Assembly (NCBI GenBank): GCA_003141555.1 | Contig: PLMN01000003.1 | Location: 62,001 to 126,000 of the forward strand | Source: Candidatus Aminicenantota bacterium | GTDB lineage: Bacteria; Acidobacteriota; Aminicenantia; Aminicenantales; UBA4085 | Direction: 5' to 3' | DNA length: 64,000 bases | Shown: piece by piece, positions 5,035-31,662 of the stretch | How positions within the stretch are numbered: position 1 is the stretch's first letter | How the letters are laid out: each line of letters opens with the position of its first letter | Made by a program: the position numbers and the translations under genes | Notes under the pieces: model-generated | What the model was told of the DNA's origin: nothing | The model's input: the letters and a program-made list of their open reading frames with translations, nothing else | Databases searched by the model: none

Positions 5035-5048
5035 ATGACGCGCGTCAT
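5035..5048. promoter_or_regulatory. 14-base perfect palindrome between bshB1 and bshA
   Basis: ATGACGCGCGTCAT reads the same on both strands. A second, imperfect dyad (ATGATG/CATCAT) overlaps the bshB1 stop just before it. The palindrome lies 76 bases before bshA. It could be an operator or only a small hairpin; no promoter could be assigned with it. Confidence 0.3.
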
Positions 5049-5123
5049 AAAGCCCGGCGTGCCTCCCGCCTGCCGCCTCCGCAGGGCGCACGAGGGAACG
5101 ACGAACGCGGGAAGGACAATCGG

Positions 5124-10575: not shown

Positions 10576-10657
10576 TTAGAAATTTTAATATTTGCTCCAA
10601 TAAATCATTGTTTAATTTTAAGTTTTATCATTTTGAAAACGAATTGAGGGGATAATA

Positions 10658-11629: not shown

Positions 11630-11665
11630 TCAATACTATTTATCCTATATTTCTATCAAAGAAAA

Positions 11666-13009: not shown

Positions 13010-13274
13010 AAAGCGAATCGATAATATTTGATTATATTCAAAAGCCCTATTCAGGCGAATTGACATTCCAGCGAAAGCATACTCCTCTTTCGTCTTTACG
13101 CTTCCCGTGAGGGGGATGCGCCTATTCTGGAAGTCGAGTTTTTATAGATGGCCCTGGAGCTGATCGCCGGAGGGGCTCGAAGTTCCCTAAAAGGCTTGAA
13201 ATACTCCAACGGCCGTTTCAAAAAGATTGCGATCACTGGCGCCATTACGGATTATACTTTACTGATATTTTCTT
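13010..13274. other. Convergent intergenic region with a GC-rich patch
   Basis: The two halves of the island converge here. About 13060-13260 is clearly richer in GC than both sides. Open frames can be drawn through it on both strands, but none has a ribosome site or a recognisable sequence. It may be leftover chromosomal or mobile DNA between two separately acquired modules. Confidence 0.45.
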
Positions 13275-14210: not shown

Positions 14211-14641
14211 CGGCTTTTCCCTTCCGCGTCTTGCGGTAATAAAAAACGAGAGATTTTCGCTTTTAAGCAATCCGGGTTCCTAGTTTGGCATTCCCATATG
14301 ACTAAGTATTTCCAACCGATTTTACGTAATTGCCCTTGTTGATATTTGTCTCTCATAATATTTTCATTGAGCTTTTTATTCCAAAACTTCTTATTTGAAA
14401 CCGGCCGTTTTGAACGTCGGCATCCCGCGTGTCCATGCCAAAAACAACCATGAATGAAAATAACCTTCTTGTGTCTCTTAAGGACAATATCCGGATTACC
14501 CGGCAATAATTTCTGATAAATTCGGAAACGATATCCCATCCTATGAATAATCGATCTTACGGTTAATTCCGGTCGCGTATTTTCGCTTTTGACATGGCTC
14601 ATTATCCAACTGCGTTTGGTCGGCGAAAATACGTCCGCCAT
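14207..14641 (-). CDS. vsr: Very-short-patch mismatch endonuclease Vsr
   Basis: 144 residues, the normal Vsr length. It has the family start (MSHVKSENTRPELTVR), the catalytic region GNPDIVLKRHKKVIFIHGC and the zinc-site FWHGHAGC, then the conserved WKYLVIWEC. Vsr nicks beside T:G mismatches that arise when 5-methylcytosine deaminates, so it protects sites methylated by the adjacent enzyme. Its ATG directly follows the methyltransferase stop (TAG at 14642-14644), and its own stop overlaps the nuclease start. The trio is therefore one transcription unit on the - strand. Confidence 0.95.
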   Translation of the reverse strand: MADVFSPTKRSWIMSHVKSENTRPELTVRSIIHRMGYRFRIYQKLLPGNPDIVLKRHKKVIFIHGCFWHGHAGCRRSKRPVSNKKFWNKKLNENIMRDKYQQGQLRKIGWKYLVIWECQTRNPDCLKAKISRFLLPQDAEGKSR

Positions 14642-16200: not shown

Positions 16201-16216
16201 TGGCACAAAACCTGCA
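16201..16216 (+). promoter_or_regulatory. Sigma-54 promoter of the export locus
   Basis: TGGCACAAAACCTGCA matches the -24/-12 consensus TGGCACRNNNNTTGCW at every defined position but one (C for the first T before TGC). Spacing of GG to GC is exact. Transcription should start near 16227, 33 bases before the TolC-like ATG, with a ribosome site (CGGAG) in between. This implies control by an activator of the NtrC type, none of which is encoded in the window. Confidence 0.72.
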
Positions 16217-16259: not shown

Positions 16260-17858
16260 ATGAAGAAATGGCGAAGAACGACCATAGCGCCGGCACTTGC
16301 GGCCGCGCTTATCCTCTTATCCCTCAGCGGGTTGCGAGCTGATCAAGCCGGCGCCCCCCCCACCGCCAAACCCGCCTCTCTCACCCTCGAGGACGCTGTG
16401 GTTCAGGCGGTACGGCGCAACCTCGGGGTGACGGCCCAGGTCTACAGCTTCCAGCAGGCCGACGACTCCGTGATCCAGGCCGGCGAGAAGTTCATCCCCT
16501 CGCTCTCGTTCCGGTTCAACCAGGAGAACATGAATTCGGCCTCCTATTCCTGGATGGACGCGAGCGACGTCACCATCACGAAGTCCGCGGTCGCCTCGGC
16601 CACCGTCACCCAACAGGGCCCGCTTGGCGGCAGCTTCTCGATCCAGCTCAGCGGCGACAAGTACGACACCAACAGCCGCTTCCAGACGATCAACCCCCGC
16701 TACGACGGCCAGCTTACCTTCAGTTACACCCAGCCCCTGCTCCGGAACTTCGGCTGGCAGACCAGCCGGCGGGACATCCTCGTCGCCCGCAACGGCCGGG
16801 ACATCGCCGAGAACACGCTCAAGAGCACCTTGCTCTCCACGATCTACTCGGTCGAGCAGGCTTACTGGAACTACGTCTACATGATCGAGTCGCTCAAGGT
16901 CGAGCGCCAGTCGCTCTCGCTGGCCGAGGCCCTGCTCGACAAGAGCCGCAAGGAGATCGCCATCGGCACTCTGGCCCCCAAGGAGATCCTTAGCTCCCAG
17001 GCCGAGGTGTCGTCGATCAAGGCCGACATCCTCCAGGCCGAGGAGGCGGTCAAGGACGCGGCCGACCAGCTCCGCGGCCTGATCAACACGCCTCTCGACA
17101 AGGAGCCGGCCGAGGTCGTGCCGGCCGACACGCCGGGCTTCGCCAAGCGCGACGTCACCCTGGACGGGGCGCTGGCCACGGCCTTCAAGTACCGGCCCGA
17201 CCTTCAATCCGGCGCGCTCGGGGTCCGCAACCAAGAGATCAACTGGTCCTACGCCAAGAACCAGATCCTGCCCCAGCTCGACCTGACGGCTCAGTACTGG
17301 AGCCCCGGCCTCTCGGGCGACCAGCTCATCTACCAGGACAACAACCCGCTGACCGGCGTCATCCTGGGTGTCATCCCGGGCGGCGCGTCCCAGGCCCTCA
17401 AAGACGCCATGGCCTTCAAGTACAACAACTGGTCGATCCAGCTCCAGCTCACCGTGCCTTTGAGCTCGATGTTCACGCGCGCGGCCGTGGCCCTGGCCCG
17501 GTCGGAGCTCGACCAGCAGATCGCGGCGATGAAGCAGACCGAGCAGACGGCGTACCTGGAGGTGCGGTCGGCGGTGCGCGCGGTCGAGACCAACTTCGAG
17601 CGCGTCGGGGCGCGCAAGGAGGCGCGGACGCTCGCCGAGCAGAAGCTCGATGCCGAGGAGGCCAAGCTCAAGGTCGGCCTGAGCAATAACTTCTTCGTGC
17701 TGAACTACCAGCGCGACCTGGCGCTCGCCCGAACGAACGAGCTGCGGGCCATGATCGACTATACGCTCTCGCTCGCGTTCCTGGACAAGGTGACGGGCGT
17801 CAGCCTCGACAAGCGGAATATCAAGATCGTCGATGCGGGCGAAGGAGCGATGAAGTGA
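16260..17858 (+). CDS. TolC-family outer membrane efflux protein
   Basis: 532 residues. A signal peptide (to about residue 27, LSGLRADQAG) precedes two homologous halves of long helices, the TolC/OEP pattern: LTLEDAVVQAVRRNLGV near the start and LDGALATAFKYRPDLQSG at mid-protein are the two repeats' opening motifs. It should form the outer membrane channel for the ABC exporter encoded next to it. It is the first gene behind the sigma-54 promoter, with CGGAG as ribosome site, and is followed after 14 bases by the adaptor-like gene. It is slightly longer than E. coli TolC, with Ala-rich helices. Confidence 0.9.
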   Translation: MKKWRRTTIAPALAAALILLSLSGLRADQAGAPPTAKPASLTLEDAVVQAVRRNLGVTAQVYSFQQADDSVIQAGEKFIPSLSFRFNQENMNSASYSWMDASDVTITKSAVASATVTQQGPLGGSFSIQLSGDKYDTNSRFQTINPRYDGQLTFSYTQPLLRNFGWQTSRRDILVARNGRDIAENTLKSTLLSTIYSVEQAYWNYVYMIESLKVERQSLSLAEALLDKSRKEIAIGTLAPKEILSSQAEVSSIKADILQAEEAVKDAADQLRGLINTPLDKEPAEVVPADTPGFAKRDVTLDGALATAFKYRPDLQSGALGVRNQEINWSYAKNQILPQLDLTAQYWSPGLSGDQLIYQDNNPLTGVILGVIPGGASQALKDAMAFKYNNWSIQLQLTVPLSSMFTRAAVALARSELDQQIAAMKQTEQTAYLEVRSAVRAVETNFERVGARKEARTLAEQKLDAEEAKLKVGLSNNFFVLNYQRDLALARTNELRAMIDYTLSLAFLDKVTGVSLDKRNIKIVDAGEGAMK

Positions 17859-17872
17859 GAAAGGATGGAACG

Positions 17873-19390
17873 ATGAATACGATGAAGAAGTTCTTTGCGG
17901 CGGCCGTGTGCGCCGCGGTGATGCTGGCGATCGCGGCCACGGTGGCGCCCGCCGCGCCCCAAACCGGCGCCGGCGCCGAAGGCCAGTCCCAGACGATGAA
18001 GCTCCTGACGCTCAAGAAGGCCCAGCTCCAGCTCGAGAAGACCAGGGGCGACTACGAGCGCTCGCTCAAACTCCTGGAACAGGGCCTCACTTCCGAGCAG
18101 GAGTTCGCCCTGGTCAAAACGACCTACCAGCAGGCTCAGGTGGACTTCCAGCAGGCCCTCATCAACTTCATGGGCAGCGAGGCCCGGATCTCGGTCGCGA
18201 GCGCGGTCAAGTTCCAGGACGCGGGCGGCAAGAAGTTCGTCCGGGTCACGCTCCGCTACTCCAGCAAGGAGCTCAAGCAGCTGGATAACTTGAACATCAA
18301 GGCCGACGACCTCTTCCCCCTCGGTTTCATGAAGGAGCTCAAGGACGTCTCGGTCTCGCTGAAGTCGGAGGCCAAGATCGTCTCCGACCCGTACGAAAAG
18401 GTCATCGCCGCGCTGCCGCTCGAGACCGAGCGTGACGTCACCTTCCAGCTCCTCAAGGACGTCGAGAACCTCGACGTCAGCGTCTTCTACTCGGGCAAGA
18501 CCGAGACGACGTCGGTCTATCTCCAGAAAGGCGTCAGCGCCAACATCGTGACCATCAACTCGGCCCAGTTCTCGCAGGAAGCCGATCTCGAGAGCACGGC
18601 GACCTATGACCTGTCGCTTGAGAAGTTCTCGGGCGAGGCCAACGTCTTCAAGCTCGACGTCGTGAACCTGCCCCACGCGATCAACTACGAGTTCTCCGAC
18701 CCGACGACGGCGGCCCGCCTCTCCCAGATCAAGTTCACCGAGGGTGTCACCAGCATGAAGCTCCAGCTCAAGCTCTTCCTGCCCAAGAATCCCGACGCCC
18801 AGGTGGTGATCGACAAGCCGCTCGAGCTCTACGTCCTGACGCTCGAGGCCGAGCGCGCCGGCGTTCTCCAGGATATGCTCGCCAAGAGCCCGGTGATCGG
18901 CCCCAAGGAGATCGACGCCATGAAGGCCGGCAGCGTCCGGCTGATGCTCGTGCCGCGCGGCGTGGGCAAGATCGAGGTCCAGGCCGTCAACCTCTACCAC
19001 GAGATCAAGGTGGGGGAGAACGTCGAGATGGAGGTCCGGGTCAAGAACGCCGGCACGCGCAAGCTCAACAACATCCGGGTGTTCGCCGACCTGCCGCTCA
19101 ACTGGCGGGCCGAGATCGCGCCCGACCTGATCTCCTCGCTCGAACAGAACAAGGAGCAGGTGGTCACGATCAAGTTCCAGCCGCCGGCCGATGTCGCGGT
19201 CGGCGACTACGAGCCCAAGATCAAGACCGAGTGCAGCGCCGACAACCGCAAGGTCGAGTCCGAGGACAAGATCGTCCGGGTTCACGTCGCGGCCAAGACC
19301 AACTTCATCGGCATCGCCCTGCTGGTGCTGCTGCTGGTCGGCCTGCTCGTCGGGATCGTGGTGTTCGGGATCAAATTGACGAGGAGATGA
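17873..19390 (+). CDS. Adaptor-like envelope protein with a helical hairpin, β-domains and C-terminal membrane anchor
   Basis: 505 residues from ATG 17873, chosen because AAAGGA lies 8 bases before it; an in-frame GTG at 17855 is weaker. After a signal peptide (AAVMLAIAATVAPAAP), residues of about 40-100 form a charged heptad-like stretch (LKKAQLQLEKTRGDYERSL) resembling the coiled-coil hairpin of HlyD-type adaptors. β-rich domains follow; the last, about 385-470, looks like a NEW3/CARDB-type sandwich (VKNAGTRKLNNIRVFADLP). A single membrane helix (IGIALLVLLLVGLLVGIVVFG) and a basic tail end the protein. That places the β-domains outside the inner membrane. Sitting between the channel and the permeases, it is the natural candidate to bridge them, but it is not a standard HlyD protein. 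Confidence 0.6.
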   Translation: MNTMKKFFAAAVCAAVMLAIAATVAPAAPQTGAGAEGQSQTMKLLTLKKAQLQLEKTRGDYERSLKLLEQGLTSEQEFALVKTTYQQAQVDFQQALINFMGSEARISVASAVKFQDAGGKKFVRVTLRYSSKELKQLDNLNIKADDLFPLGFMKELKDVSVSLKSEAKIVSDPYEKVIAALPLETERDVTFQLLKDVENLDVSVFYSGKTETTSVYLQKGVSANIVTINSAQFSQEADLESTATYDLSLEKFSGEANVFKLDVVNLPHAINYEFSDPTTAARLSQIKFTEGVTSMKLQLKLFLPKNPDAQVVIDKPLELYVLTLEAERAGVLQDMLAKSPVIGPKEIDAMKAGSVRLMLVPRGVGKIEVQAVNLYHEIKVGENVEMEVRVKNAGTRKLNNIRVFADLPLNWRAEIAPDLISSLEQNKEQVVTIKFQPPADVAVGDYEPKIKTECSADNRKVESEDKIVRVHVAAKTNFIGIALLVLLLVGLLVGIVVFGIKLTRR

Positions 19391-19402
19391 GCGGGGTGCG
19401 AC

Positions 19403-20788
19403 ATGTTTAAGACGATCTTCAAGAAGGAGCTGCTCGACCAGATCCTCAGCCCCAAGTTCCTGATCGTCTCCCTGCTCTGCCTGGTCCTGGTGCCGGCCAG
19501 CCTTCTCCTCAACTCAGCCGGCTACGACGACGCCTTCCGGGAGTACGATGCGGCCCGCAAGGAGGCCGGGAATTCGACGGAGATCTTCCGGGAACCGAGC
19601 GCTTTGAGCGCATTCGGTATCGGCCTGGAAAACGTCATGCCGAAATCCGTCGTCTTTTCCAAATACCAGATGGAGGCCCGGGGGGCGCAGGTCCAAAGCG
19701 AAGTCCTCAGCAACATCAACGGCAAGATCGATTTTGTGGTCATCGTCAGCTTCCTTCTTGGTCTTATCGCCGTCCTCTACGCCGGGACGATGGCCTGCGA
19801 GGAGAAGGAGATCGGGACGCTCAAGCTAGTCCTGGCCAATCCGGTCAAGCGAAGCACGGTCATCGGGGCCAAGTTCGCGGGAGGCTTCAGCGTCCTCCTG
19901 ATTCCCTTCGCCCTCAGTACATTGATCGCCCTGCTGCTTCTCCTCGGCCAGGGATTCCCCATCTTCGCCTCCGGCAATGCGGCCCGGATAGCGGCGGTCA
20001 TCGTCCTATCGGTCCTCTACCTTGCAGCCATGTTTTCCCTGGGGCTGTTCATTTCCACCCGGACGCACAAGACGAGCCTGGCCCTCCTGGCCGGCTTCTT
20101 CGCCTGGATTTTCCTGACCTTTATCATTCCGAAGACCGGCGAACCCCTGGCCGGCCTCATCCGGCGGATTCCGAGCGAGGACGCCATGAAGGCCAACCGG
20201 GCCCAGGTCCGCAGCCAGATCGAAAAGGAAAAAGGAAAGGCCCTGGCTCCCCTGATGGAGAAGTATTTGCACGTTGACGGGCGAGGGAAGTGGGACTGGG
20301 ATGCCTATACGAAGGCCCGTGGGCCGGTGGCCCAGAATTACGAGGAACGGATCGACCAGACGCTCCAGAAGTTCGATGCGGCCTACGAACAAAAGAAAAG
20401 CGATCGCCGGAACCTCAGCCTCAATATCGCCCGCATATCGCCGGCTTCGGCGTTTACCCAGGCGGCCTTGAACTTCTGCGATACGGGCGTCGCCGATCTC
20501 GAAAATTTTTCGCGAAGTCTCCAAAACCACGGCATTCTGCTCTCCCGGGCCGTCTTCAAATACTCCTTCCAGGACACGTTTACGTCCGACGACGGAAAGA
20601 CCAATAGGTCCATGGGAGGAGCTTCGTCGCCGGAGGGCAAGATCGACTACCCGAAATTCCGCTATCAGTTCCCGGCTTTCGAGGAGACCCTGCGGGCCGC
20701 CGCGCCCGATCTCGTCCTCCTCATCTTCTTCAATCTCATCTTCTTCGCCGCCGCGTACGTTTCGTTCGGCGGCTACGACGTCCGTTAA
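19403..20788 (+). CDS. ABC-2 type permease 1 of the export locus
   Basis: 461 residues. It starts FKTIFKKELLDQI (an amphipathic stretch) and has a first membrane segment at about 22-40, an outer loop, then a core of about four segments. EEKEIGTLKLVLANP at about 132 is this family's cytoplasmic motif after the second segment. A second soluble region (about 255-425) with ISPASAF...DTG precedes the last segment and the ending YDVR. This is the ABC-2/NosY-GldF-like class. It comes just before the only ATPase gene of the locus. Confidence 0.85.
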   Translation: MFKTIFKKELLDQILSPKFLIVSLLCLVLVPASLLLNSAGYDDAFREYDAARKEAGNSTEIFREPSALSAFGIGLENVMPKSVVFSKYQMEARGAQVQSEVLSNINGKIDFVVIVSFLLGLIAVLYAGTMACEEKEIGTLKLVLANPVKRSTVIGAKFAGGFSVLLIPFALSTLIALLLLLGQGFPIFASGNAARIAAVIVLSVLYLAAMFSLGLFISTRTHKTSLALLAGFFAWIFLTFIIPKTGEPLAGLIRRIPSEDAMKANRAQVRSQIEKEKGKALAPLMEKYLHVDGRGKWDWDAYTKARGPVAQNYEERIDQTLQKFDAAYEQKKSDRRNLSLNIARISPASAFTQAALNFCDTGVADLENFSRSLQNHGILLSRAVFKYSFQDTFTSDDGKTNRSMGGASSPEGKIDYPKFRYQFPAFEETLRAAAPDLVLLIFFNLIFFAAAYVSFGGYDVR

Positions 20789-20805
20789 CCAAGGAGGTTA
20801 TCGAT

Positions 20806-21546
20806 ATGACGACACTTCAACCCATTCTCAAGGCGGACGACCTGTCCAAGCGCTATGAGGACGGCGTCCTGGCTCTCGACCACCTCAACCTGGAGGTCCG
20901 CGGGGGCGAGGTCTACTGCCTGCTCGGGGCCAACGGCGCGGGCAAGACGACGACGATCAACCTCTTCCTGAACTTCATCCCGCCCACCACCGGGACGTGC
21001 TTCATCAAGGGGATCGACGTCAACAAGGACCCGCTCGAGGCGAAGAAGTACGTCGCCTTCGTCTCGGAGAACGTCATGCTCTACGGCAACTTCACCGCCC
21101 GCCAAAACCTCGACTTCTTCGCCAAGCTGGGCGGCAAGCCGAACCTGACCAAGGAGCAGTACTATCAGGTCATGCGCCGGGTCTCGCTCCAGGAGAAAGC
21201 CTTCGAGCAGCGGGTCAAGACGTATTCAAAGGGGATGCGCCAGAAGCTCGGGATCTCGATCGCGATCATCAAGGACGCGGCCGGCATCCTGCTCGACGAG
21301 CCGACGTCCGGATTGGACCCCAAGGCCGCCGAGGAGTTCCAGGAGACCCTGGCCGAGCTCAAGGGCGAGGGTAAGGCCATCCTCATGTCCACCCACGACA
21401 TCTTCCGGGCCAAGGAAATCGGCGACCGGGTGGGGATCATGAAGGAGGGCCGCCTCGTCATGGAGCGGACGCGCGAAGAGCTCCAGTATGAGGACCTGGT
21501 CAAGATCTACATCGACTACATGAAGTCGGAACCGTTGACGGCGTAA
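20806..21546 (+). CDS. ABC transporter ATP-binding protein of the export locus
   Basis: 246 residues with all the motor motifs: Walker A GANGAGKTTT (about 43-52), signature YSKGMRQKLG, Walker B GILLDEPTSG and the switch His in MSTHD. It resembles the ATPases that pair with ABC-2 permeases. It stands after permease 1 and before permeases 2-8, and is the only ATP-binding cassette gene in this 15-kb locus. One ATPase homodimer would have to serve several different permeases. A ribosome site (AAGGAGG) is clear. Confidence 0.95.
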   Translation: MTTLQPILKADDLSKRYEDGVLALDHLNLEVRGGEVYCLLGANGAGKTTTINLFLNFIPPTTGTCFIKGIDVNKDPLEAKKYVAFVSENVMLYGNFTARQNLDFFAKLGGKPNLTKEQYYQVMRRVSLQEKAFEQRVKTYSKGMRQKLGISIAIIKDAAGILLDEPTSGLDPKAAEEFQETLAELKGEGKAILMSTHDIFRAKEIGDRVGIMKEGRLVMERTREELQYEDLVKIYIDYMKSEPLTA

Positions 21547-21571
21547 GGGGCGGGCGCCTTCGCCCCGCCCC
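21547..21571 (+). other. Strong GC hairpin after the ATPase gene
   Basis: GGGGCGGGCG and CGCCCCGCCCC pair around a CTT-type loop directly after the ATPase stop. There is no U-run, so it is not a standard terminator. It may stabilise the upstream mRNA or partly dampen readthrough into the following permeases. Confidence 0.5.
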
Positions 21572-21607
21572 CGCCCAGCCGCTCCGCTTCGCACTCTGGA
21601 GTCCGAC

Positions 21608-23050
21608 ATGTTGAAAAATATCCTCCGCAAGGAGCTGTTGGAGAACATCCACAGCTACAGATTTCCCCTGTTCGCCCTGATCTGCGTCGTCCTCATCCCG
21701 CTGGGCATGTCCGTCAACAACGCCCAGTACGCCAAGCGCCTGAAGGACTACAACGAGCAGGTCCGCCTGGCCGACGAGGCCCAGACCGGCCTCAAGATCC
21801 AGGACCTGATGGCCGGCCGCGTGACCATCAAGGGCTTCCGCCCGCCCTCGCAGCTCTCGGTCTTCTCCCAAGGCCTCGAAAACTCCCTCCCGCGCTACTA
21901 CCAGTTCGGCCAGGACGGGTATTCGCAAGGCGAGTCCTCGAGCGGTGACGAGACGCTGGCCTCCACGCAGGGCAAGTTCGATTTCGTCTTTCTCATTCAA
22001 ATGGTCATCAGCCTGGTCGGGCTGCTGTTCGCCTCGGACATGATCTCGGGCGAAAAGGAATCGGGGACCCTGCGAGCCATGCTGTCCAACAGCCTGCCGC
22101 GCGACGCCATCCTCCTGGGCAAGATCGTGGGTGGGTATCTGGCTCTGCTCGCGCCGTTTCTGGTGGCGCTCGTGATAGGCGTGCTCCTCCTGCTCCCGGG
22201 TGGGTTCCCGGTTTTCGCCGGCGGCACCCCCGCGCGCATCGTGGTGATGGCCGCGGCGGCCGCGCTCTTCATTTTGATTTATTACGTGATAGGAACGATG
22301 GTCTCGGCCACGTCGGCCAAGGCCCGGACGTCGCTGGTGGCCATCTTATTGATTTGGTGCGGCTTCCAGCTGGTCATCCCCAAGCTGTCCGACATCGCCG
22401 CAGCGCTGATCTATCCCGTCCGGACCGATACGCAGGTCTCGCTCGAGAAGTCGCTGCTCATCAACACGCTCGAGACCGAGTCGGCCAAGGAGCTGGGGCG
22501 CCAATTCGATTTGATCTTCGCCGGCGCTAAGCCCGATGCGCCCAACGATCCCAATTCGCCCGAATTTAAGAAATGGGCGCCGATCCGCGACGATCTCCAG
22601 CTCAAGACGCGCGAGCAGAAGGCCGCCCAGCTCGCGGCCATCGACGAGACGTTCCTCCAACAGCAGCGCCGCCAGCGGAGCCTGGCCGCGGCGCTGTCGC
22701 TCATCTCGCCGAGCTCCGCCTTCGGGAGGCTCGCGGCCGACATCTGCGGGACGGGCGACCTGGCCCGGACGAAGTACATCGAGGCGGTCCGCTCGCACCA
22801 GAAGGCGCTCGACAACGAGCTGTTCAGCAAGGTCAAGCGGACGCTGATGATGCACGACAACGGCCGGACGACGATGATGTTCAGCGCCGAGCCGGTGGAC
22901 CCCAAGAAGCTTCCCAAGTTCGCCATCGCGGACGCCTCGCTGGGCGAAGCGCTCAAGGCGAACGCGGCCAGCATCGCGGCGCTGCTCTTCTGGCTCATCG
23001 TGCCCTTCGCCTTCGCGTACGTGCGGTTCCTGAAATATGACGTGAGGTAG
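21608..23050 (+). CDS. ABC-2 type permease 2 of the export locus
   Basis: 480 residues. N-terminus ILRKELLENIHSYRF, then a hydrophobic segment ending VLIPLGMSV. The family motif SGEKESGTLRAMLSNSLPR is near 147, ISPSSAF...GTG near 366, and the end is FLKYDVR. Layout is the same as in the other seven: one segment, outer loop, four segments, about 170 outer residues, last segment. It lies 61 bases after the ATPase, beyond the GC hairpin. The closest relative in the window by eye is permease 4. Confidence 0.85.
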   Translation: MLKNILRKELLENIHSYRFPLFALICVVLIPLGMSVNNAQYAKRLKDYNEQVRLADEAQTGLKIQDLMAGRVTIKGFRPPSQLSVFSQGLENSLPRYYQFGQDGYSQGESSSGDETLASTQGKFDFVFLIQMVISLVGLLFASDMISGEKESGTLRAMLSNSLPRDAILLGKIVGGYLALLAPFLVALVIGVLLLLPGGFPVFAGGTPARIVVMAAAAALFILIYYVIGTMVSATSAKARTSLVAILLIWCGFQLVIPKLSDIAAALIYPVRTDTQVSLEKSLLINTLETESAKELGRQFDLIFAGAKPDAPNDPNSPEFKKWAPIRDDLQLKTREQKAAQLAAIDETFLQQQRRQRSLAAALSLISPSSAFGRLAADICGTGDLARTKYIEAVRSHQKALDNELFSKVKRTLMMHDNGRTTMMFSAEPVDPKKLPKFAIADASLGEALKANAASIAALLFWLIVPFAFAYVRFLKYDVR

Positions 23051-23092
23051 GGGCGTGCGCGAGGAAATAGGCGACTCCGAAAGAGAAATGAC

Positions 23093-24559
23093 ATGAGCGG
23101 CAAACGCGACCGCGATCACACATTCCGGGCGATCTTCCGCAAAGAGCTTCTCGAAGGCTTCGTCACGCGGCGGTTCCTCGCCGTCCTCGTCCTGTGCCTG
23201 ATCGTCTTCCCGGTGGGGAGCTATATGAGCCGGCGCGACTACCAGTCGCGCCTCCAAAACTATCAGGAAGCCCAGCGCCTCTACGAAAGCACGAAGAAGA
23301 CGGTTGGGTCCATTCTCTTTCAGACGGGAGGGGCCAAGGGCTTCCGCGCGCCCTCCGGCCTCAGCTTCCTGTCGACGGGCCTCGAGATCGTCTTGCCCGA
23401 CGCGGCCGAGACCGTCAAGAAGTACAACACGAACTATGCCGACATGCGCCTGACCAACGGCCAGGGGCTCGACAACCTCTACGGCTTCTTCCACGGCCCG
23501 CTCGACTTATCCTTCCTCGTGACCGTGGTCATGACCTTCCTGGCCCTGGCCTTCTCCTACAATGCGGTCTCGGGCGAGAAGGAGAGCGGCACGCTCGGCC
23601 TGATGCTGTCGAACTCGGTCCTGCGGTCGCGGATCGTCACCGCTAAAGCGGCGGCCCAGTTCCTGATGCTGGTCGTGCCGTTCCTGGCCGGCGTGGCCTT
23701 GAGCCTGGCGCTCGCCCCGCCCCCGGCCGCGGCGGCCGGCGCGGCCTCGCCCTGGCCGGCCGTGCTGACGGCGGTGGCCTTCTCGCTGCTGACCATCGCC
23801 GTTTTCTTCAACCTGGGCCTGCTGGTCTCGAGCCTGACCCGCCAGGCCGTCACGTCGATCGTCGTCCTCCTCCTCGTCTGGACGGCGCTCTTCGCCGTCG
23901 TGCCGCGGCTCAGCGTCATCGCCACGCGCCTCCTCGCGCCGGCGCCGTCCGAGCAGGCCTTCGCCCAGGAGAAGGCCCGCATCCGCCTGGCCAACGAGAA
24001 GGATTGCGAGGCCGAGGTCGACAAGCTCATCAAGGAAAACCCCATTCCGCAGGGTCGCGGCAACGGCTATCTGGAGTGGCAGAAATTGAGCGCCGATTTC
24101 CGGGCCAAGCAGGACGCGATCCGGGCCAAGTTCCAGGGCGACCTCATGGCGGCGGTGGACAAGGCCCGCCAGACTTACGAGCGCAAGCGCGACGCCCAGA
24201 TCCGGACGTCGATGCTCGTGTCGCGCGTTTCGCCCGTCAGCTGCTATGTCCGGTCCATGGCCGAGATCTCGGGGACCGGCTGGCTCGAATACAAGCGCTT
24301 CACGGCCGCGGCGGACCGGTTCCTGCGGACGCTGAACGACCAGGTTTACAGCAAGAATCAGTTCACGCGGATGGAGGGCGGGGCCATGATGAGCTTTACC
24401 GGCAAGGCCACCGATCCGGCGCCGCGGATGCCCGAGGTCCGCATCCCGTTCGGCGACGTGGCCCGCGACGTGCTGCCGGACCTCGTCCTGCTCCTCCTCT
24501 TCAACGCGCTCTTCTTCGCGGGGGCATTCGTCGCCTTCCTGCGCTACGATCCGAGATAA
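23093..24559 (+). CDS. ABC-2 type permease 3 of the export locus
   Basis: 488 residues. FRAIFRKELLEGF opens the protein, SGEKESGTLGLMLSNSVLR is near 160, VSPVSCY...GTG near 378 and the end is FLRYDPR. An Ala/Pro-rich turn (APPPAAAAGAAS) lies in the membrane core. The outer region between the fifth and last segments is charged and helical. It shares the order and spacing of motifs with its neighbours but only modest overall identity, so these are old paralogues and not recent copies. It stands 15 bases before permease 4. Confidence 0.85.
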   Translation: MSGKRDRDHTFRAIFRKELLEGFVTRRFLAVLVLCLIVFPVGSYMSRRDYQSRLQNYQEAQRLYESTKKTVGSILFQTGGAKGFRAPSGLSFLSTGLEIVLPDAAETVKKYNTNYADMRLTNGQGLDNLYGFFHGPLDLSFLVTVVMTFLALAFSYNAVSGEKESGTLGLMLSNSVLRSRIVTAKAAAQFLMLVVPFLAGVALSLALAPPPAAAAGAASPWPAVLTAVAFSLLTIAVFFNLGLLVSSLTRQAVTSIVVLLLVWTALFAVVPRLSVIATRLLAPAPSEQAFAQEKARIRLANEKDCEAEVDKLIKENPIPQGRGNGYLEWQKLSADFRAKQDAIRAKFQGDLMAAVDKARQTYERKRDAQIRTSMLVSRVSPVSCYVRSMAEISGTGWLEYKRFTAAADRFLRTLNDQVYSKNQFTRMEGGAMMSFTGKATDPAPRMPEVRIPFGDVARDVLPDLVLLLLFNALFFAGAFVAFLRYDPR

Positions 24560-24574
24560 GGCCGGGGAGACGCC

Positions 24575-26035
24575 ATGAGACATTCGACCTTTGGCACGAT
24601 CTTCCGCAAGGAGCTCCTCGAGAACATCCGCAACCAGCGCTTCCTCCTGGCCCTGGGGCTGTGCGTCGTCCTCATTCCGCTGGGGTTCGCCGTCCAGTAC
24701 ACGGACTACGCGGCCAAGGATGCGGCCTACCGGGATGCGGTCCGGACCTTCGAAGACGGCCACAAGACGCTGGGCGATTTCGTCCAAAGCGCCTCGATGT
24801 TCCGCCCCCCGTCGCCCCTGGCCCCGATCTCGACCGGCGTCGAAGCGCTGCTGCCGACGTCGATCGACACGGTCGGCTTCGTCAACGAGAGCGGGGCGAC
24901 GCTCGGCTACGTCAATGCGAACGGGCTCGGCGATCCCTTCCGCTTCCTCTACGGCCCGCTCGACTTGGCCACGATCGCGGCGGTCGTCCTGTCGATCCTA
25001 GCAGTCCTCTTCGTCTTCAACGGCGTGAGCGGCGAGAAGGAGCGCCGGACGCTGGCCCAGGTCTTCTCCAACGCCGTCCCGCGCTCGACGCTCATCACGG
25101 CCAAGATGGCCGCGGCCTTCGCCCTGATCGCGGCCGCGTTCCTCGTCGGGCTGCTGCTCGGGGTGCTGACGTTAGCCCTCCAGGGCTTCGAGGTCTGGGG
25201 GAGCTCCGCGACCCTGGTCCCGTTCGCGATCGCGACGGGTGCGGTCCTCGTCTACATCTTCGTCATGGTCAACCTGGGGCTGCTCGTCTCGACGCGGGCC
25301 CGGAGCTCCCTTTCGGCCATGGTCACCCTGGTCATGGTCTGGGTCGCCCTCTTCATGCTGGTGCCCAAAGCGGCGGTCGTCGCCTCCAAGATCGTCCGGC
25401 CGGTCAAGTCCCAGCAGGTCGTGGACCTCGAGAAGAGCCAAGTCCGCGCCCAGCTGACCAAGGAGAGCGGGGGCGAGATCGACAAGATGCGGAAGACGAT
25501 GCCGGGCATCAAGGATATGACCATGGACGCGTTCTTCAAGGCCCAGCGCGAAAAAAACCCGCTCATCGACGAGTATCAGAAGAAGCAGGACGAGATCATG
25601 AGCGCCTACAACGAGCGGATCGACGGGGAAATGGCCAAGCTCGACACCCTGTACGGGACGCAGCGGGACGGCCAGACCCGCCTCGCCCGCAACCTGTCGC
25701 GGCTATCGCCGGTCAGCTGCTTCCTCCACGGCGTCACGGAGATCGCCGGCACCGGGCTGGCCGAGGTCGGCCGCCTGAAGGAGAACAGGACGGCGCTCAC
25801 GAGCCTCCTCGTGAACGAGATCAGCCGCAAGATCAAGTCTCTCCGCTTCGAGAACACGACCTGGGGCAGCGATGGGGTCGACAACGAGACGCCCGCCCCC
25901 AGGCTGGTCTACAAGTCGGCGACGCTCGGCGACGAGCTGGCCGGCGCCTGGCCGGACATGGCGCTGCTTTTCTTCTACGGAATTCTGTTCTTCGCCGGGG
26001 CGTACGTCTCGTTCCTGAGGTACGATTTGAGGTGA
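24575..26035 (+). CDS. ABC-2 type permease 4 of the export locus
   Basis: 486 residues. FRKELLENIRNQRF at the start is nearly the same as in permease 2. SGEKERRTLAQVFSNAVPR near 153 departs from the usual GTL. LSPVSCF...GTG is near 377, and the end is FLRYDLR. A Lys/Glu-rich outer segment (ESGGEIDKMRKTMPG) lies before the second motif. It is packed between permeases 3 and 5 in the same orientation, so it is part of one long transcript. Confidence 0.85.
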   Translation: MRHSTFGTIFRKELLENIRNQRFLLALGLCVVLIPLGFAVQYTDYAAKDAAYRDAVRTFEDGHKTLGDFVQSASMFRPPSPLAPISTGVEALLPTSIDTVGFVNESGATLGYVNANGLGDPFRFLYGPLDLATIAAVVLSILAVLFVFNGVSGEKERRTLAQVFSNAVPRSTLITAKMAAAFALIAAAFLVGLLLGVLTLALQGFEVWGSSATLVPFAIATGAVLVYIFVMVNLGLLVSTRARSSLSAMVTLVMVWVALFMLVPKAAVVASKIVRPVKSQQVVDLEKSQVRAQLTKESGGEIDKMRKTMPGIKDMTMDAFFKAQREKNPLIDEYQKKQDEIMSAYNERIDGEMAKLDTLYGTQRDGQTRLARNLSRLSPVSCFLHGVTEIAGTGLAEVGRLKENRTALTSLLVNEISRKIKSLRFENTTWGSDGVDNETPAPRLVYKSATLGDELAGAWPDMALLFFYGILFFAGAYVSFLRYDLR

Positions 26036-26090
26036 AGGGCGCGATGCGAAATGCGGCGAAACTGTGCGAGCGGTTGAGAGGAGAAGGGCG

Positions 26091-27416
26091 ATGATCGGCG
26101 TCATCTATAAGCGCGAGATCCTCGACCACCTGAAATCGGCCAAGTTCCTGATCGGCTTCTGCCTGACCCTCGCCATCGCGGTCGCGGCCACGGTCATCAA
26201 CGTCCAGGACTACGGCCGGCGCCTGCAGGATTATCGGGCCGCGCAGCGCGACCTCCCGGCCAACAAGTTCGATATTCAGATCTTCCGGCCGCCCGAAGTC
26301 CTGAGCGTCCTCGTCCAGGGCAAGGACCGGACGCTCGGCAACAAGGCGTCCGTCAACTATATGAACATCCCCGACCGGCTGACGGGCTACATGTCCGAGC
26401 GGAGCACGCCCCGCCCCAAGTCCCTTTCAGGATTCGGATCGGTGGATTTCGCCTTTCTGGTGCGCGTCGTCCTCAGCCTGCTCGTGATCTTCCTGGCCTA
26501 CGACGCGGTGGCTGAGGAGAAACAGTCCGGGACGCTGAAGCTAGCCCTGGCCAACGCCCTGCCGCGCTCGAGCCTGCTCATCGGCAAGGCCGCGGCAGGG
26601 CTGACGGTGGTCCTGGGCTCCCTCCTCGCGGCCGCGGCGGTAGCGGTCCTGATCATGATGGTCCACCCGGCAGTCGATTTATCGGGGGCGGACGCGGCCC
26701 GGATTCTCAGCCTGGTTGCGGCCTCGGCCCTCTACCTGACCGTGTTCTATATGCTGAGCCTGTTGGTCAGCGCGGCGGTCAAGCGGCCGGCGACCGCGCT
26801 CATGGTCCTGCTTCAGCTCTGGATCTTCCTCGTGGTCGTGTATCCCAATCTCGGGGTGAGCATCGCTGAGAACTTCTATAAGCTGCCGACCGACCGCGAG
26901 ATGGCCGAGAAGAAGGTCGCCGCTTTCGCGCCATACGGCGACGAGCTGAAAAAGGTCCAGGCGGCGTATTTCGGAGGGGATCGGTCGCAGCCGACGGGCA
27001 TGCGCTATTTCGAGCTCCAGTCGCTCCGGTCGCGCCTCTGGAACGACGTGGACCGGGAATTGAGCCTTCGCTTGAGCGGCCAGCTCGAGCGGGCCCGGTG
27101 GATTTCCATCCTCTCCCCGGCGGCGCTCTTCAACCGGGTCGTGGAGCGCTACGCCCGGACGGACATCGAGGAATACGACCGATTCCTGGCCAGCGTGGAG
27201 CGGTACTGGAAGACGAAATATATGGACTTCCAGGTTCTTTTTTACAAAGACCTGCCGGCGTACCGGAAGGCCGCCACGCCGCCCTTCGAGCACCCCGCCG
27301 AGGGGACGTCCGAAGCCTGGGCGGCGACAGCGCCGCAGATTGTCGTCCTAGCGCTGCTGGCCCTGATCTTTTTCGCCGCGGCCTCGACTGCCTTCCTCCG
27401 CAAGGACGTGAGGTAG
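26091..27416 (+). CDS. ABC-2 type permease 5 of the export locus
   Basis: 441 residues from ATG 26091, which follows AGGAGAAGGG; an in-frame ATG 27 bases earlier adds residues unlike the family start. MIGVIYKREILDHLKSAKF opens the protein, AEEKQSGTLKLALANALPR is near 141, LSPAALF is near 341 and the end is FLRKDVR. The TG after the second motif is replaced by TD. It has a shorter outer region than permeases 2-4. The gene ends 4 bases before permease 6. Confidence 0.85.
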   Translation: MIGVIYKREILDHLKSAKFLIGFCLTLAIAVAATVINVQDYGRRLQDYRAAQRDLPANKFDIQIFRPPEVLSVLVQGKDRTLGNKASVNYMNIPDRLTGYMSERSTPRPKSLSGFGSVDFAFLVRVVLSLLVIFLAYDAVAEEKQSGTLKLALANALPRSSLLIGKAAAGLTVVLGSLLAAAAVAVLIMMVHPAVDLSGADAARILSLVAASALYLTVFYMLSLLVSAAVKRPATALMVLLQLWIFLVVVYPNLGVSIAENFYKLPTDREMAEKKVAAFAPYGDELKKVQAAYFGGDRSQPTGMRYFELQSLRSRLWNDVDRELSLRLSGQLERARWISILSPAALFNRVVERYARTDIEEYDRFLASVERYWKTKYMDFQVLFYKDLPAYRKAATPPFEHPAEGTSEAWAATAPQIVVLALLALIFFAAASTAFLRKDVR

Positions 27417-27420
27417 GCCG

Positions 27421-28815
27421 ATGCGAACGATTATCTTCCGTGAGATCCGGGAATACATCCAGAGCCTGCAGTTCGTCGTCCTGCTGCTCTTCAGTGTCGT
27501 GCTCTTTTCGGCCAACGGGATCGTCTTCGCCCGCAAGTTCCAGGCGGAAAACGCCGCGTATTCCGCGGCGGCCGCCCAGTTCGCGCCGAACACGCAGTAT
27601 CTTTTCTTGACGCGGCAACCCAGCCCGCTCCTCTTCCTGGCCGAGGGCGGCGACCTGGACCGCCCCGCGTCGTATGATATGAAGGCCAAGGGCTATATCA
27701 GCGCGTCCGCGCCGCGGCCGCGCGACTACAAGCTGCCCGATATCCCCAAGCTCGACTGGTCGTTCATCGTCAAGACGGTCTTCAGCCTGTACGTTGTGCT
27801 GCTGGGCTACGCGGCGGTGAGCGGCGAGAGAGAACAGGGAACGCTCCGGCTTGTCCTGTCCAATCCCGTGGGGCGAGTGCGATTCCTGATCGGGAAATAC
27901 CTGGCGATTCTCGCCGCGGCCTTTATCCCGTTGGCCGTGGGATGCGTCATTAGCCTGGGGATTCTGGGCGTCAGCCTGCCCCAGATCCTGACCTGGGGAC
28001 TGGCCTCGCGCGTCCTGGCGCTGCTGGCGTTGAGCGCGGCGTATTTGTCGCTCTTCGCGTTTCTGAGCCTGCTCGTCTCGTCGGTGATGCGCCGCTCGTC
28101 GCTCGCCCTGCTTTGTCTGCTCACGGCCTGGGTGCTCTTCGCCGTCCTGATCCCCGACACGTCGGGCATCCTGGCCGAGAAGTTCGCCAAGGTGCAGAGC
28201 GACTACGACGCCGCCAAGAGCATCGGGCCCATGATCGAGAAGGAAGTCTGGGCCAAGATCGGCGCCCTCCAGGGGCGGATCGACAAGGGCGAGCTGAAGA
28301 CGGAGGAGGCGGTGAAAGCCGAGGCGGACAAGGCATTCGAAGACGGCCAGGAGAAGGTTCGGTTCTTCGAGAAGGGCTACGAGGACGCGCTGGCGGCGCG
28401 GGCGTCGCTCGCGAGAAGCCTGGCCCGCGTCTCGCCGGTCGCCCTGTTCCAGTACGCGGCCGAGGACCTGGCGGGCTCGGGCGTGGACCGGGAGGAGGCG
28501 TTCCGTGAGGATTTGCGGGCGTATTCGCGGGAGTTCGACGCCTATGTGTTGAAGAAGATGGGCAAGCTGGTCGGCCAGTCGAACTGGTCGTTCAGCACTT
28601 GGGTCATGCTGAACGGCAAAGAGATCGAAATCCGTTCGCCCCAGGCGGAAGCCTATCGCGGCGGCATGTCGGATTTCCCCCGGTTCGTCGAGCGGGCGCC
28701 ACGGCTGGCGGATGGCGTGAAGGGTGCGGCGGGCGATATCGCCGGACTGCTTTTGTGGAATATCGTCCTGGCGATGCTGGCCTTCGCGGCGTTTTTAAAG
28801 GCGGATGTGAGGTGA
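27421..28815 (+). CDS. ABC-2 type permease 6 of the export locus
   Basis: 464 residues. IIFREIREYIQSLQF at the start, SGEREQGTLRLVLSNPVGR near 135, VSPVALF...GSG near 336, end FLKADVR. The first outer loop has FLTRQPSPLLFLAEGG, the counterpart of the pattern 'P-S-x-L-x-x-x-x-x-G' seen in the first loops of the other permeases. Overlapping short gaps with permeases 5 and 7 (4 bases each) point to coupled translation. Confidence 0.85.
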   Translation: MRTIIFREIREYIQSLQFVVLLLFSVVLFSANGIVFARKFQAENAAYSAAAAQFAPNTQYLFLTRQPSPLLFLAEGGDLDRPASYDMKAKGYISASAPRPRDYKLPDIPKLDWSFIVKTVFSLYVVLLGYAAVSGEREQGTLRLVLSNPVGRVRFLIGKYLAILAAAFIPLAVGCVISLGILGVSLPQILTWGLASRVLALLALSAAYLSLFAFLSLLVSSVMRRSSLALLCLLTAWVLFAVLIPDTSGILAEKFAKVQSDYDAAKSIGPMIEKEVWAKIGALQGRIDKGELKTEEAVKAEADKAFEDGQEKVRFFEKGYEDALAARASLARSLARVSPVALFQYAAEDLAGSGVDREEAFREDLRAYSREFDAYVLKKMGKLVGQSNWSFSTWVMLNGKEIEIRSPQAEAYRGGMSDFPRFVERAPRLADGVKGAAGDIAGLLLWNIVLAMLAFAAFLKADVR

Positions 28816-28819
28816 GGCC

Positions 28820-30079
28820 ATGACGGGAACGATTATCAAGAAAGAGATCGCGTCCAACCTGCTGAGCTATAAATTCTTCATCGTCATCCTGCTCACCACC
28901 CTCCTGCTGGCGACCAGCTTCTTCGTCCTGGCCAAGGACTTCAAGGGGCGCAAGGCCGACTACGAGCTGGTCCGGCCCAAGCCGGGCGAGGCGATGGCCG
29001 TGCTGCCGCCCAACCCGCTCTCAATCTTCGCCAAAGGCCTGGACGAGGCCATGACCCGGTCGTTCGAGATCGGCGCATATGGGATGGGGGTGCGCGCCGG
29101 CCAGAAGTCGGGAAACGCGATATTCGCCTTTTTCCCGACGCCGGACTTCGTCTACATCGTCAAGGTCGTCCTGTCGTTAGTGGCGATGCTGTTCGGGTTC
29201 GACCAGATCAGCCGCGAGCGCGAGAACGGCGTGCTGCGCCTCGTGCTGTCGAATTCGGTGTCGCGGGCCAAGGTGCTGGCGGGCAAGTGGCTGGGCAACT
29301 ATCTCAGCCTGGCCGTGCCGTTCACCCTGGTTACGCTCATCGGGTTCGCCCTGATGAACCTGGACCCGCAGATCAGCTTCGGCGCGGCGGGGACGATGCG
29401 GTTTCTGCTGCTGCTCGCGGTGGCTCTGCTGTATGTGGCCCTCTTCCTGAGCTTGGGACTGCTGATCTCGGCCCTGACCAAGAAGGCGGCCTCGTCGCTC
29501 GTCGTGCTGCTCCTGATCTGGGCCGTGGCGGTGTTCGTCCTGCCCAACATCGGGACGCTCGTGGCGCGGCAGCTGGTGGACGTCCCGTCGGTTAAGGCGC
29601 TAAGCGAGAAGCGGCAGCAGACCTGGACGCGGGAGATCCTGTTGGCGATCGTCGAATCGCGGGGCAAGGGCGACGCGGCGTGGGACGCATCGCGGAAGGA
29701 GCATTTCGGCAAGATCGACGTCGAGTTCGACCAGCTCGAGAACGATTATCGGGTGAAATTCGACAGGCTCGTCCGGCTGACGAAGAACATCAACCGCGTC
29801 TCGCCGGCGGCGAGCTTCGTCTACGCGGAGACCGAGCTGGCCGGGACGGGGATCGCGGAGGAGGGCCGGCTGAAGGAGGGCGTCGTGCGCTACAAGGACG
29901 CCGTCCTGAAGGAGTCCGATCAGGGAAAGAAGGAGCATACCGCGTTCAGCTACAAGTACCGGTCGGTCGGGCAGGTGATGGTCCAGGGCGGGCTGTTCGA
30001 CGTGGCCTGGCTGGCGGTGTTCACGATCGTCCTCTTCGCCGGCGCCTACGCGGCCTTCGTCCGCTACGACGTCAGATAA
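28820..30079 (+). CDS. ABC-2 type permease 7 of the export locus
   Basis: 419 residues, the shortest of the eight. TIIKKEIASNLLSYKF at the start, SRERENGVLRLVLSNSVSR near 131 (GVL for GTL), VSPAASF...GTG near 326, end FVRYDVR. Its first loop has LPPNPLSIFAKGLDEAM. It is followed by about 150 bases that hold palindromic repeats before permease 8. Confidence 0.85.
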   Translation: MTGTIIKKEIASNLLSYKFFIVILLTTLLLATSFFVLAKDFKGRKADYELVRPKPGEAMAVLPPNPLSIFAKGLDEAMTRSFEIGAYGMGVRAGQKSGNAIFAFFPTPDFVYIVKVVLSLVAMLFGFDQISRERENGVLRLVLSNSVSRAKVLAGKWLGNYLSLAVPFTLVTLIGFALMNLDPQISFGAAGTMRFLLLLAVALLYVALFLSLGLLISALTKKAASSLVVLLLIWAVAVFVLPNIGTLVARQLVDVPSVKALSEKRQQTWTREILLAIVESRGKGDAAWDASRKEHFGKIDVEFDQLENDYRVKFDRLVRLTKNINRVSPAASFVYAETELAGTGIAEEGRLKEGVVRYKDAVLKESDQGKKEHTAFSYKYRSVGQVMVQGGLFDVAWLAVFTIVLFAGAYAAFVRYDVR

Positions 30080-30082
30080 AAT

Positions 30083-30147
30083 GGAGACACAATACCTATT
30101 ACCCTATTTCCCTTTCTTCCCAGTGGAGCGGCAGGGTGTGATTAAAT
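30083..30147. repeat. Truncated copy of palindromic repeat family A
   Basis: It begins with the family end GGAGACACAATACCTATT directly after the permease 7 stop and has no matching right end of its own; a second left end starts at 30148. It is therefore a half copy or a copy interrupted by insertion of the next one. Confidence 0.7.
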
Positions 30148-30219
30148 GGAGACACAATATCAATTTCCTCATTTCCAGGAGCCTAATCTGGAAAATAGGG
30201 AAATAGGTATTGTGTCTCC
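30148..30219. repeat. Palindromic repeat family A, copy between permeases 7 and 8
   Basis: 72 bases. The left end is GGAGACACAATAT, one or two changes from the family end, and the right end is its complement GGTATTGTGTCTCC (30206-30219). As RNA it would fold into a long hairpin inside the export transcript, so it may affect how much of permease 8 is made. The ribosome site of permease 8 lies just after it. Confidence 0.8.
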
Positions 30220-30234
30220 AAATTGGAGATGGAT

Positions 30235-31662
30235 ATGCTTAGCGCGTTGATAAAGAAGGAAATACGGGCGAACCTCGTCTCCTTTCGCTTCGTCGCCGTC
30301 GCGGCGATGGTCTTGATCGTGGTGCCGGTGGCGATCCTCGTCCTGGCCAACGACGCCGTGAAGAAAGTCGACGAGTTCTCCATGCGCCGGACCGAGACCG
30401 AGAACTATCTGAAATCCTACGCCCACTTCAACCGGCTGCAGAACGTCGTCCAGCCCGCGCAGCCGCCGCTGCCCGCGTACGCGCTGGTGCGCGGCATCTC
30501 GTCGGACGTCAACATCGAGGAGTTCGACGACGATCCGCTGCCGGTCATGTTCCCCCTGCTCGATCTGACCTTCGTCGTGGCCATTCTGCTCAGCCTGGCA
30601 GCGTTGATCTTTTCCTACGACGCCGTCTGCGGCGAAAAGGAGGACGGCACGCTCAAGCTGATGCTGGCCAACGGGCTGCCCCGGGCGAAAATCCTGCTCG
30701 GGAAAGTGATCGGCGGGACGGTGACGCTTCTCGTGCCGTTTGTCGCGTCGCTCATCCTGGGGTTGTTCGTCATCCTGCTCAACCCTCGCCTCGCCTGGAG
30801 CGGGTCGGATTGGGCCGCGCTAGGCGTTCTCTTGGCGGGCGCGGCGCTCTACGTCTTTTTCTTTTTCGTGCTCGGCGTATTCATCTCGGCCCGTCACCAG
30901 TCGTCCTCGGCCTCGATCATGACCTCGCTCTGCGCCTGGGTCGTGTTCGTCCTCGTCCTGCCCAACTTGAGTCCGTACATGGCCTCGCTCGTCGCGCCCG
31001 CGCCGTCGCGGATCAAAGTGGGGCGCGAGGTGTTCCGCCTAACCGACTTAGAACGCGACGACCTGGGGCGGAAGCTGCAGGCGGATCGGCTGCGGGAGCT
31101 CGTCAAGAAATATCCTGTGCTGACCGAAAGAGTATCCGATACCGAAGCCAAGGCGCGGGCGGACAGGGACCCCGCCTACAAGGAGGCGATGCAAGCCCGG
31201 GTGCGCGAAGTCCAAGCCGCGTGGGACGAGGCCAACCGCATCCAGAACGGGAAGGCGAACGCCCTCTGGGACGACCTAAGGCTCAAGGAGGAGGCCCAGA
31301 CCAGATTGGCGAAGGCGATCTCCATGATCTCGCCGGCGGCGGATTTCACCTATGCGGCCACGGACCTCACGTCCACGGGGCTGATGAACCAGAAGCATTT
31401 CGACGATCTGAGCACGTTGTGGGAGCAGTCGTACGAGGATTACGTCCGGGCGCGGACCGCGGCCCTCCAGAAGCAGGATTCGACCGTCGACTGGTGGAAC
31501 TCGCCCGTCGACGTCAGCGACATGCCACGCTTCCAGTACAGGGAGGAGGCGGTCGATGCGCGGATCGCGGGCGCCCTCCCACCGCTCGGCATTCTGGCCG
31601 CGCTGGCGTTGCTTGCCTTTGGCGCGGCCTATTTTTCCTTCGTGAAATATGACGTTCGCTGA
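30235..31662 (+). CDS. ABC-2 type permease 8 of the export locus
   Basis: 475 residues from ATG 30235, chosen because GGAG lies 6 bases before it and the protein then starts LSALIKKEIRANLVSFRF like its paralogues. CGEKEDGTLKLMLANGLPR is near 132, ISPAADF...STG near 365, end FVKYDVR. It has a long charged helical outer region (about 255-365). It is separated from permease 7 by the repeat cluster and is the last permease; the next gene, 12 bases on, is a PfkB kinase. Confidence 0.85.
   Translation: MLSALIKKEIRANLVSFRFVAVAAMVLIVVPVAILVLANDAVKKVDEFSMRRTETENYLKSYAHFNRLQNVVQPAQPPLPAYALVRGISSDVNIEEFDDDPLPVMFPLLDLTFVVAILLSLAALIFSYDAVCGEKEDGTLKLMLANGLPRAKILLGKVIGGTVTLLVPFVASLILGLFVILLNPRLAWSGSDWAALGVLLAGAALYVFFFFVLGVFISARHQSSSASIMTSLCAWVVFVLVLPNLSPYMASLVAPAPSRIKVGREVFRLTDLERDDLGRKLQADRLRELVKKYPVLTERVSDTEAKARADRDPAYKEAMQARVREVQAAWDEANRIQNGKANALWDDLRLKEEAQTRLAKAISMISPAADFTYAATDLTSTGLMNQKHFDDLSTLWEQSYEDYVRARTAALQKQDSTVDWWNSPVDVSDMPRFQYREEAVDARIAGALPPLGILAALALLAFGAAYFSFVKYDVR

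Follow-up and report, generated by a model that had tools for sequence, protein, structure and literature searches.

In group II energy-coupling factor (ECF) transporters, one energising ATPase serves several membrane partners, and motors shared in this way have so far been described for importers. A similar economy is seen in the MsmX-type multitask nucleotide-binding domains (NBDs), in which one ATPase energises several membrane partners (PMC7658222). Here, we describe a bacterial locus that may represent the export counterpart of such an arrangement. It lies in a stretch of 64,000 nucleotides (hereafter the window; contig PLMN01000003.1, positions 62,001 to 126,000) of a Candidatus Aminicenantes metagenome-assembled genome (MAG) of the Acidobacteriota (assembly GCA_003141555.1), whose closest public relative is 96% identical in the ATPase, and it comprises eight ABC-2 permease genes (P1 to P8), a single ATP-binding cassette (ABC) ATPase gene (ATP1), a gene for an adaptor-like protein (NEW) and a gene for a TolC-type outer-membrane channel. 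The reading that we favour, with a probability of roughly 0.6, is that these genes encode a tripartite ABC exporter under sigma-54 control, whose single motor is shared by exchangeable permease pairs, as judged from the comparison of sequences and gene content across related genomes.

Open reading frames (ORFs) and profile searches place the array at 16260-31662 on the forward strand, with the TolC-type channel, NEW, P1, ATP1 and P2 to P8 running head to tail and a PfkB gene following the permeases. The gaps between its genes are only 5-144 bases, which suggests that the array from TolC to P8 is one operon. The channel gene (16260-17858; Pfam OEP, E-value 3e-32) and NEW (17855-19390, with a likely ATG start at 17873; Pfam NPCBM_assoc, 2e-13) precede P1 (19403-20788; Pfam PF12679, 8e-26), which has orthologs at L030, L016/L097 and L135, and ATP1 (20806-21546; PF00005, 4e-25), which is the sole ATPase within the array. 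Next come P2 (21608-23050; PF12679, 9e-35), which has orthologs in about ten genomes and is often the only extra permease in relatives, P3 (23093-24559; 8e-29) and P4 (24575-26035; 2e-27), P5 (26064-27416; 6e-30) and P6 (27421-28815; 2e-27), and finally P7 (28820-30079; 3e-28) and P8 (30223-31662; 1.2e-30 in a whole-genome search), whose TTG start is uncertain since ATG codons lie within a few codons of it. The first-pass annotation of this DNA had described eight permeases of 419-488 residues with a common motif order and low overall identity, served by one ATPase and a TolC channel, and all of this is borne out: each permease gene is intact and scores far above the PF12679 cut-off (27.2 bits), most also match DUF3526, and their pairwise identity is 23-36%. 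Moreover, two more permeases of this system, without an ATPase of their own, form the pair A-B (C2:57628-60718) of the same genome, about 17 kb upstream of TolC; the pair stops about 1.3 kb short of the window. Its surroundings contain no ABC ATPase. With eight permeases in the window plus A-B, the genome has 10 for one ATP1.

To place this number in context, the loci of ATP1 orthologs were fetched and every permease was typed by homology and tree. Across about 20 genomes, one conserved ATP1 is accompanied by 2 to 10 permeases, and the constant core in Aminicenantes relatives consists of NEW, ATP1 and the pair P7-P8; P8 occurs in almost every complete ATP1 locus of Aminicenantes that was seen. 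A minimal locus of NEW, ATP1 and two permeases occurs in Ignavibacteria/Bacteroidota (L024, L025, L028, L031) and in Aminicenantes (L105, L106, L133). Larger sets have three permeases, with P2 added (L104, L132, L136); four, with P5-P6 added and A-B present on another contig (L010/L091); or five, with P2 and A-B added (L006/L131, L015/L088). Six are reached in two ways, either by P5-P6 and a diverged A-B-like pair (L134) or by P2, one extra permease and P3-P4 (L099), while L137 has seven (P2, P5-P6 and A-B added) and L096/L097 has eight (P1, P2, P5, P6, P7 and P8 plus A-B, on two contigs). Several membrane modules without an ATPase of their own therefore stand beside one conserved ATPase, which is the gene content of a shared-ATPase system. 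In none of these relatives is a permease of the array accompanied by an ATPase of its own, the finding that the first-pass annotation had named as one way for its proposal to fail; the only ATPase-plus-permease neighbour is a separate system formed by ATP2 and its single permease S, which often adjoins the array (L015, L016, L099). In the source genome, this system is located on another contig (L003, G000:C31:241909-244024), and ATP2 is the only close relative of ATP1 there (65% identical). At L002 (G000:C12:3669-5057), an S-like permease stands alone, without a nearby ATPase.

Inheritance, gain, loss and exchange of the permeases proceed mainly by twos. P5 and P6 are neighbours in an unchanged order in all six genomes having them, A and B are adjacent in every genome having them, and in L137 the A-B unit is inserted between P7 and P8. 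The DNA from the P3 start to the P4 end (23093-26033) is 86% identical to that of L099, which belongs to another genus (g5), with 88% and 84% amino acid identity for P3 and P4, respectively, whereas neighbouring permeases are only 65-70% identical. Likewise, synonymous divergence (dS) between the window genome and L099 is 0.37/0.41 for P3/P4 but 1.0-1.2 for P7/P8, and in comparison with genome G010 it is 0.34/0.48 for P5/P6 but 0.61 for NEW, 0.99 for P2 and 1.44 for P7. These contrasts in DNA identity and dS show that P3-P4 and P5-P6 were recently exchanged between genera, as two-gene cassettes, after the core had diverged. In addition, A-B of the window genome is 64-69% identical to its counterparts in other genera and only 60-62% to that of a genus mate, with which NEW is 91% identical. 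In none of the genomes examined is an ATPase part of a cassette, although the cassettes recur beside ATP1 in different genera.

The permeases themselves show a common face and divergent faces. The motif order shared by all eight comprises an E-[KR]-[EQ]-x-[GR]-[TV]-L coupling loop, an SP motif in the periplasmic domain and a YDVR-like C-terminal end, and identity between the eight paralogs is 45% in this loop as against 19-20% in the periplasmic domains. Such a conserved ATPase side with differing periplasmic sides would be expected if the ATPase is shared, but it is not proof of sharing because many ABC-2 families conserve coupling loops. The AlphaFold2 model of P7, the sole permease modelled, is of very high confidence (predicted local distance difference test, pLDDT, 94.6; predicted TM-score, pTM, 0.91) and has the type V (NosY/ABCG-like) fold with an N-terminal elbow helix and six transmembrane (TM) helices. 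Its elements are, in order, the elbow, TM1, a small periplasmic domain, TM2, the coupling loop, TM3-5, a 130-residue helical periplasmic domain and TM6, with the side of each loop taken from NosY/ABC-2 topology. Among solved structures, NosY comes closest (TM-score 0.77 by target), followed by ABCG transporters, and the permease profile also matches NosY at 6e-20. In the permease tree, P3 and P4 are sisters (support 100) and P6 groups with B (98), the remaining groupings being deep; a sister relationship of P5 and A as first members of their pairs was not resolved (support 44). Two other readings of the array were considered and rejected: recent tandem duplication does not fit 23-36% identity and separate supported lineages, and decay does not fit eight intact genes and a ratio of nonsynonymous to synonymous divergence (omega) below 0.6 where measurable, with values of 0.11-0.55 for all measurable permease comparisons. 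The permease lineages are by these measures all old and, where measurable, under purifying selection, rather than the recent duplicates under decay that the first-pass annotation had named as a way for its proposal to fail.

The catalytic motifs of ATP1 are intact as read from its sequence, namely Walker A (GANGAGKT), the signature (YSKGM), Walker B (LLDEPTSGLDP) and the H-loop (STHD), and the protein is 81-96% identical among relatives of the order. By sequence, its nearest solved structures are the NBDs of ABCA lipid transporters (1e-63), followed by NosF (4e-31), and its orthologs are found in MAGs of Aminicenantes, other Acidobacteriota, Ignavibacteria, Bacteroidota and Gemmatimonadota.

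NEW is encoded by a single-copy gene in the genome. The first-pass annotation had listed an adaptor gene at the locus; the gene is there and its N-terminal hairpin matches adaptor models, but it is not a standard HlyD/membrane fusion protein (MFP). Adaptor models match that hairpin only (TIGR00999, CzcB-type, 2e-8), the protein carries a NEW3 domain, it has no Pfam lipoyl or HlyD match, and its AlphaFold2 model (pLDDT 83.6) has no mid-chain hairpin between lipoyl and beta-barrel domains. Instead, the model shows a signal helix, a hairpin formed by residues 34-69 and 75-100, an immunoglobulin (Ig)-like beta stack and a C-terminal membrane helix, and a Foldseek search of NEW against the PDB returned generic Ig-like folds only. 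The hairpin carries an RxxxLxxxxxxS (RLS) motif, conserved in the alignment of most orthologs, and this is the motif by which MacA, AcrA and MexA dock TolC (PMC3391258). NEW may thus work like an adaptor while belonging outside the HlyD/MFP family, and the model points to an unusual adaptor architecture in which an Ig-like stack carries the RLS alpha-hairpin at its N-terminal end and is anchored C-terminally in the membrane. This architecture is found across MAGs of Acidobacteriota, Ignavibacteria, Bacteroidota and Gemmatimonadota. Of the Aminicenantes relatives whose flanks are long enough, most have TolC linked to the locus, in one orientation or the other. This linkage and the motif would be in keeping with a NEW that docks TolC and with export as the direction of transport.

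The distant A-B pair appears to be tied to the array by common regulation. Genes for a histidine kinase with a GAF domain and for a response regulator of NtrC type (Pfam HisKA and Sigma54_activat) lie 3' of A-B (C2:54748-57481), and orthologs of both occur at many relatives' loci, either between TolC and NEW or after A-B, including one outside the order (L107). Sigma-54 is encoded in the genome, and among 21 operon heads, each a TolC, NEW or A gene, 18 are preceded by sigma-54 (-24/-12) promoter-like sites, compared with a mean of 0.13 and a maximum of 2 in 1000 shuffles. We selected these heads among the available loci once the sites had been inspected for the first time, and several of the heads are related to one another; they do not amount to 21 independent trials, but the excess is large despite this non-independence. 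In the window, the site (TGGCACAAAACCTGCA, 16201-16216, forward strand) agrees with 10 of 12 consensus positions and lies about 45-60 nt 5' of the TolC start. Sigma-70 promoters and terminators showed no clear excess over shuffles. The operon of A, B, the kinase and the NtrC-type regulator (G000:C2:54748-60718, L001:4749-10719) has a sigma-54 site of its own. The kinase and regulator are probably the regulators of the array system, and together with the sigma-54-type sites they link A-B to it.

Taken together, these data are consistent with an exporter built of constant and variable parts. The TolC-type channel, NEW and ATP1, the latter acting as a homodimer, would be the constant parts, with NEW anchored by its C-terminal membrane helix and meeting TolC through its N-terminal hairpin. 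The variable parts would be NosY-like type V permeases in mainly fixed pairs, namely the core P7-P8, P5-P6, P3-P4 and A-B, with P2 acting alone or with P1. Each pair would form a dimer that docks the same ATP1 via the conserved cytoplasmic coupling loop, and its divergent helical periplasmic domain would face its own substrate as well as the shared adaptor and channel, while the kinase and NtrC-type activator would switch expression through sigma-54 promoters. We give about even odds to the fullest form of this proposal, in which up to five interchangeable permease pairs, moving between genera as two-gene cassettes, make use of one ATPase, one adaptor of new architecture and one outer-membrane channel under sigma-54/two-component control. 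The combinatorial exporter suggested by the first-pass annotation is well supported by comparative evidence as far as the sharing of one motor by pairs is concerned, given one ATPase with 2-10 permeases, the gain and exchange of ATPase-less pairs and the retained coupling loop. Free mixing of permeases is not, since the genomes point to fixed pairs, plus a P2 that is often alone. As for the substrates, the fold and the ATPase relatives allow a guess at amphipathic or hydrophobic compounds. Neighbouring genes in other phyla were considered as a further clue and rejected, the patatin/Omp85, PDZ, BatA and glycosyltransferase neighbours being inconsistent. Two Ignavibacteria/Bacteroidota MAGs do have a patatin-Omp85 fusion directly 3' of their two-permease locus (L028:8951-11845, L031:11942-14812).

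Several observations weigh against this proposal. P2 is often partnerless in relatives, and not every permease therefore obeys the pair rule; P3-P4 is known from two genomes only; and some distant NEW proteins have an imperfect RLS motif or lack it. Outside Aminicenantes, no TolC was found within the fetched flanks, and the coupling to TolC may be lineage-specific or in trans. All genomes are MAGs, and ATP1 in G005 (L099) as well as P1 and ATP1 in G010 (L096) are frame-broken near contig ends, where assembly error and real decay are indistinguishable; in G001, G005 and G010, a contig breaks off within the array. Finally, searches across the contigs of the source genome gave about 52 ABC ATPase matches, and some pair may be served in trans by one of these.

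Among the alternatives, the one that survives best is mechanotransmission as in NosDFY or MacAB, in which the periplasmic domains drive NEW, TolC or envelope partners and no substrate crosses the inner membrane. The closeness of the permease to NosY, the long helical insert between TM5 and TM6 and the span of NEW from the inner membrane via its Ig-like stack to the hairpin would all suit it. However, the locus has no conserved periplasmic client such as NosD or NosZ, the fold relatives include ABCG-type exporters as well, and the ATPase comes closest to the NBDs of lipid-exporting ABCA proteins; hence we consider this mechanism unlikely, although it is compatible with a shared motor and differs from the export proposal in mechanism only. 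A second alternative is that ATP1 is used by P7-P8 only, the other pairs relying on unlinked ATPases and being clustered for co-regulation. The many ATPases of the genome would permit this, and ATP2-S is an existing case of one permease with one ATPase, but the recurrence of ATPase-less cassettes beside ATP1 in different genera, the lack of any close ATP1 relative other than ATP2 and the coupling loop kept in all eight permeases make it rather improbable. The first-pass annotation had also considered a large complex acting on the envelope. A single machine of this kind, with all eight permeases assembled around ATPase dimers, fits the transcription-unit layout and the purifying selection seen where measurable but is very hard to sustain when P7-P8 is the whole set in L105, L106 and L133 and the set has three permeases in L104, L132 and L136. 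Moreover, related genera differ from each other by entire pairs, a variation that a machine requiring all eight parts could not withstand.

The genes upstream of the array are of a different kind. Those at 2662-6245 resemble, by their sequences, BshC, BshB1 and BshA of bacillithiol synthesis, and between these bacillithiol-type genes with a symporter and TolC lies a defence-like island (8354-15868) with a putative methyltransferase, a viperin-like radical SAM protein (pVip, 3e-21), a dCMP-deaminase/sugar-binding fusion, an HNH nuclease and a C5 cytosine methylase. Within it, the viperin-like protein stands beside a protein of unknown family and the cytidine-deaminase/sugar-binding-domain fusion (9562-13009), possibly an unusual nucleotide-based defence set. 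In a genus mate (L084), the A-B pair occupies the position of this island.

How does the exporter proposed here relate to known systems? NosDFY shares the core fold and sequence of the permease and a related ATPase, but NosY has about 276 residues and is without the helical periplasmic insert of roughly 130-190 residues of the array permeases, and the array locus has many permeases per ATPase and a TolC-type channel rather than a NosD beta-helix partner or nosZ context. GldA-GldF-GldG and other DUF3526/ABC2_membrane_2 exporters belong to related Pfam families and have a core of two permeases and one ATPase; nevertheless, the array proteins score only about 17-27 bits for GldF (cut-off 288) and 141 for GldA (cut-off 403), and no gliding genes were seen near the array. 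To our knowledge, no array expansion is known for GldAFG-type/DUF3526 exporters. A literature search found nothing on DUF3526 or multi-permease ABC-2 exporters, and the COG1470/NPCBM-associated work it returned is not about this system. MacAB-TolC and HlyD/MacA-type pumps likewise combine a TolC-type channel, an adaptor with an RLS hairpin (PMC3391258) and an ABC ATPase, but MacB is of type VII fold with a fused ATPase, whereas NEW differs from their adaptors in having no lipoyl and beta-barrel domains, an N-terminal hairpin and a C-terminal anchor. If the proposal is true, it would establish an adaptor architecture that had not been characterised before, DUF3526 would acquire a meaning, and the swapping of pairs with a constant motor, adaptor and channel would offer a testable split of energy coupling from substrate choice in an ABC exporter. 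A further parallel is that with MsmX and the group II ECF transporters, which are importers with mostly unlinked partners, whereas here putative exporter pairs are arrayed beside their ATPase, adaptor and channel.

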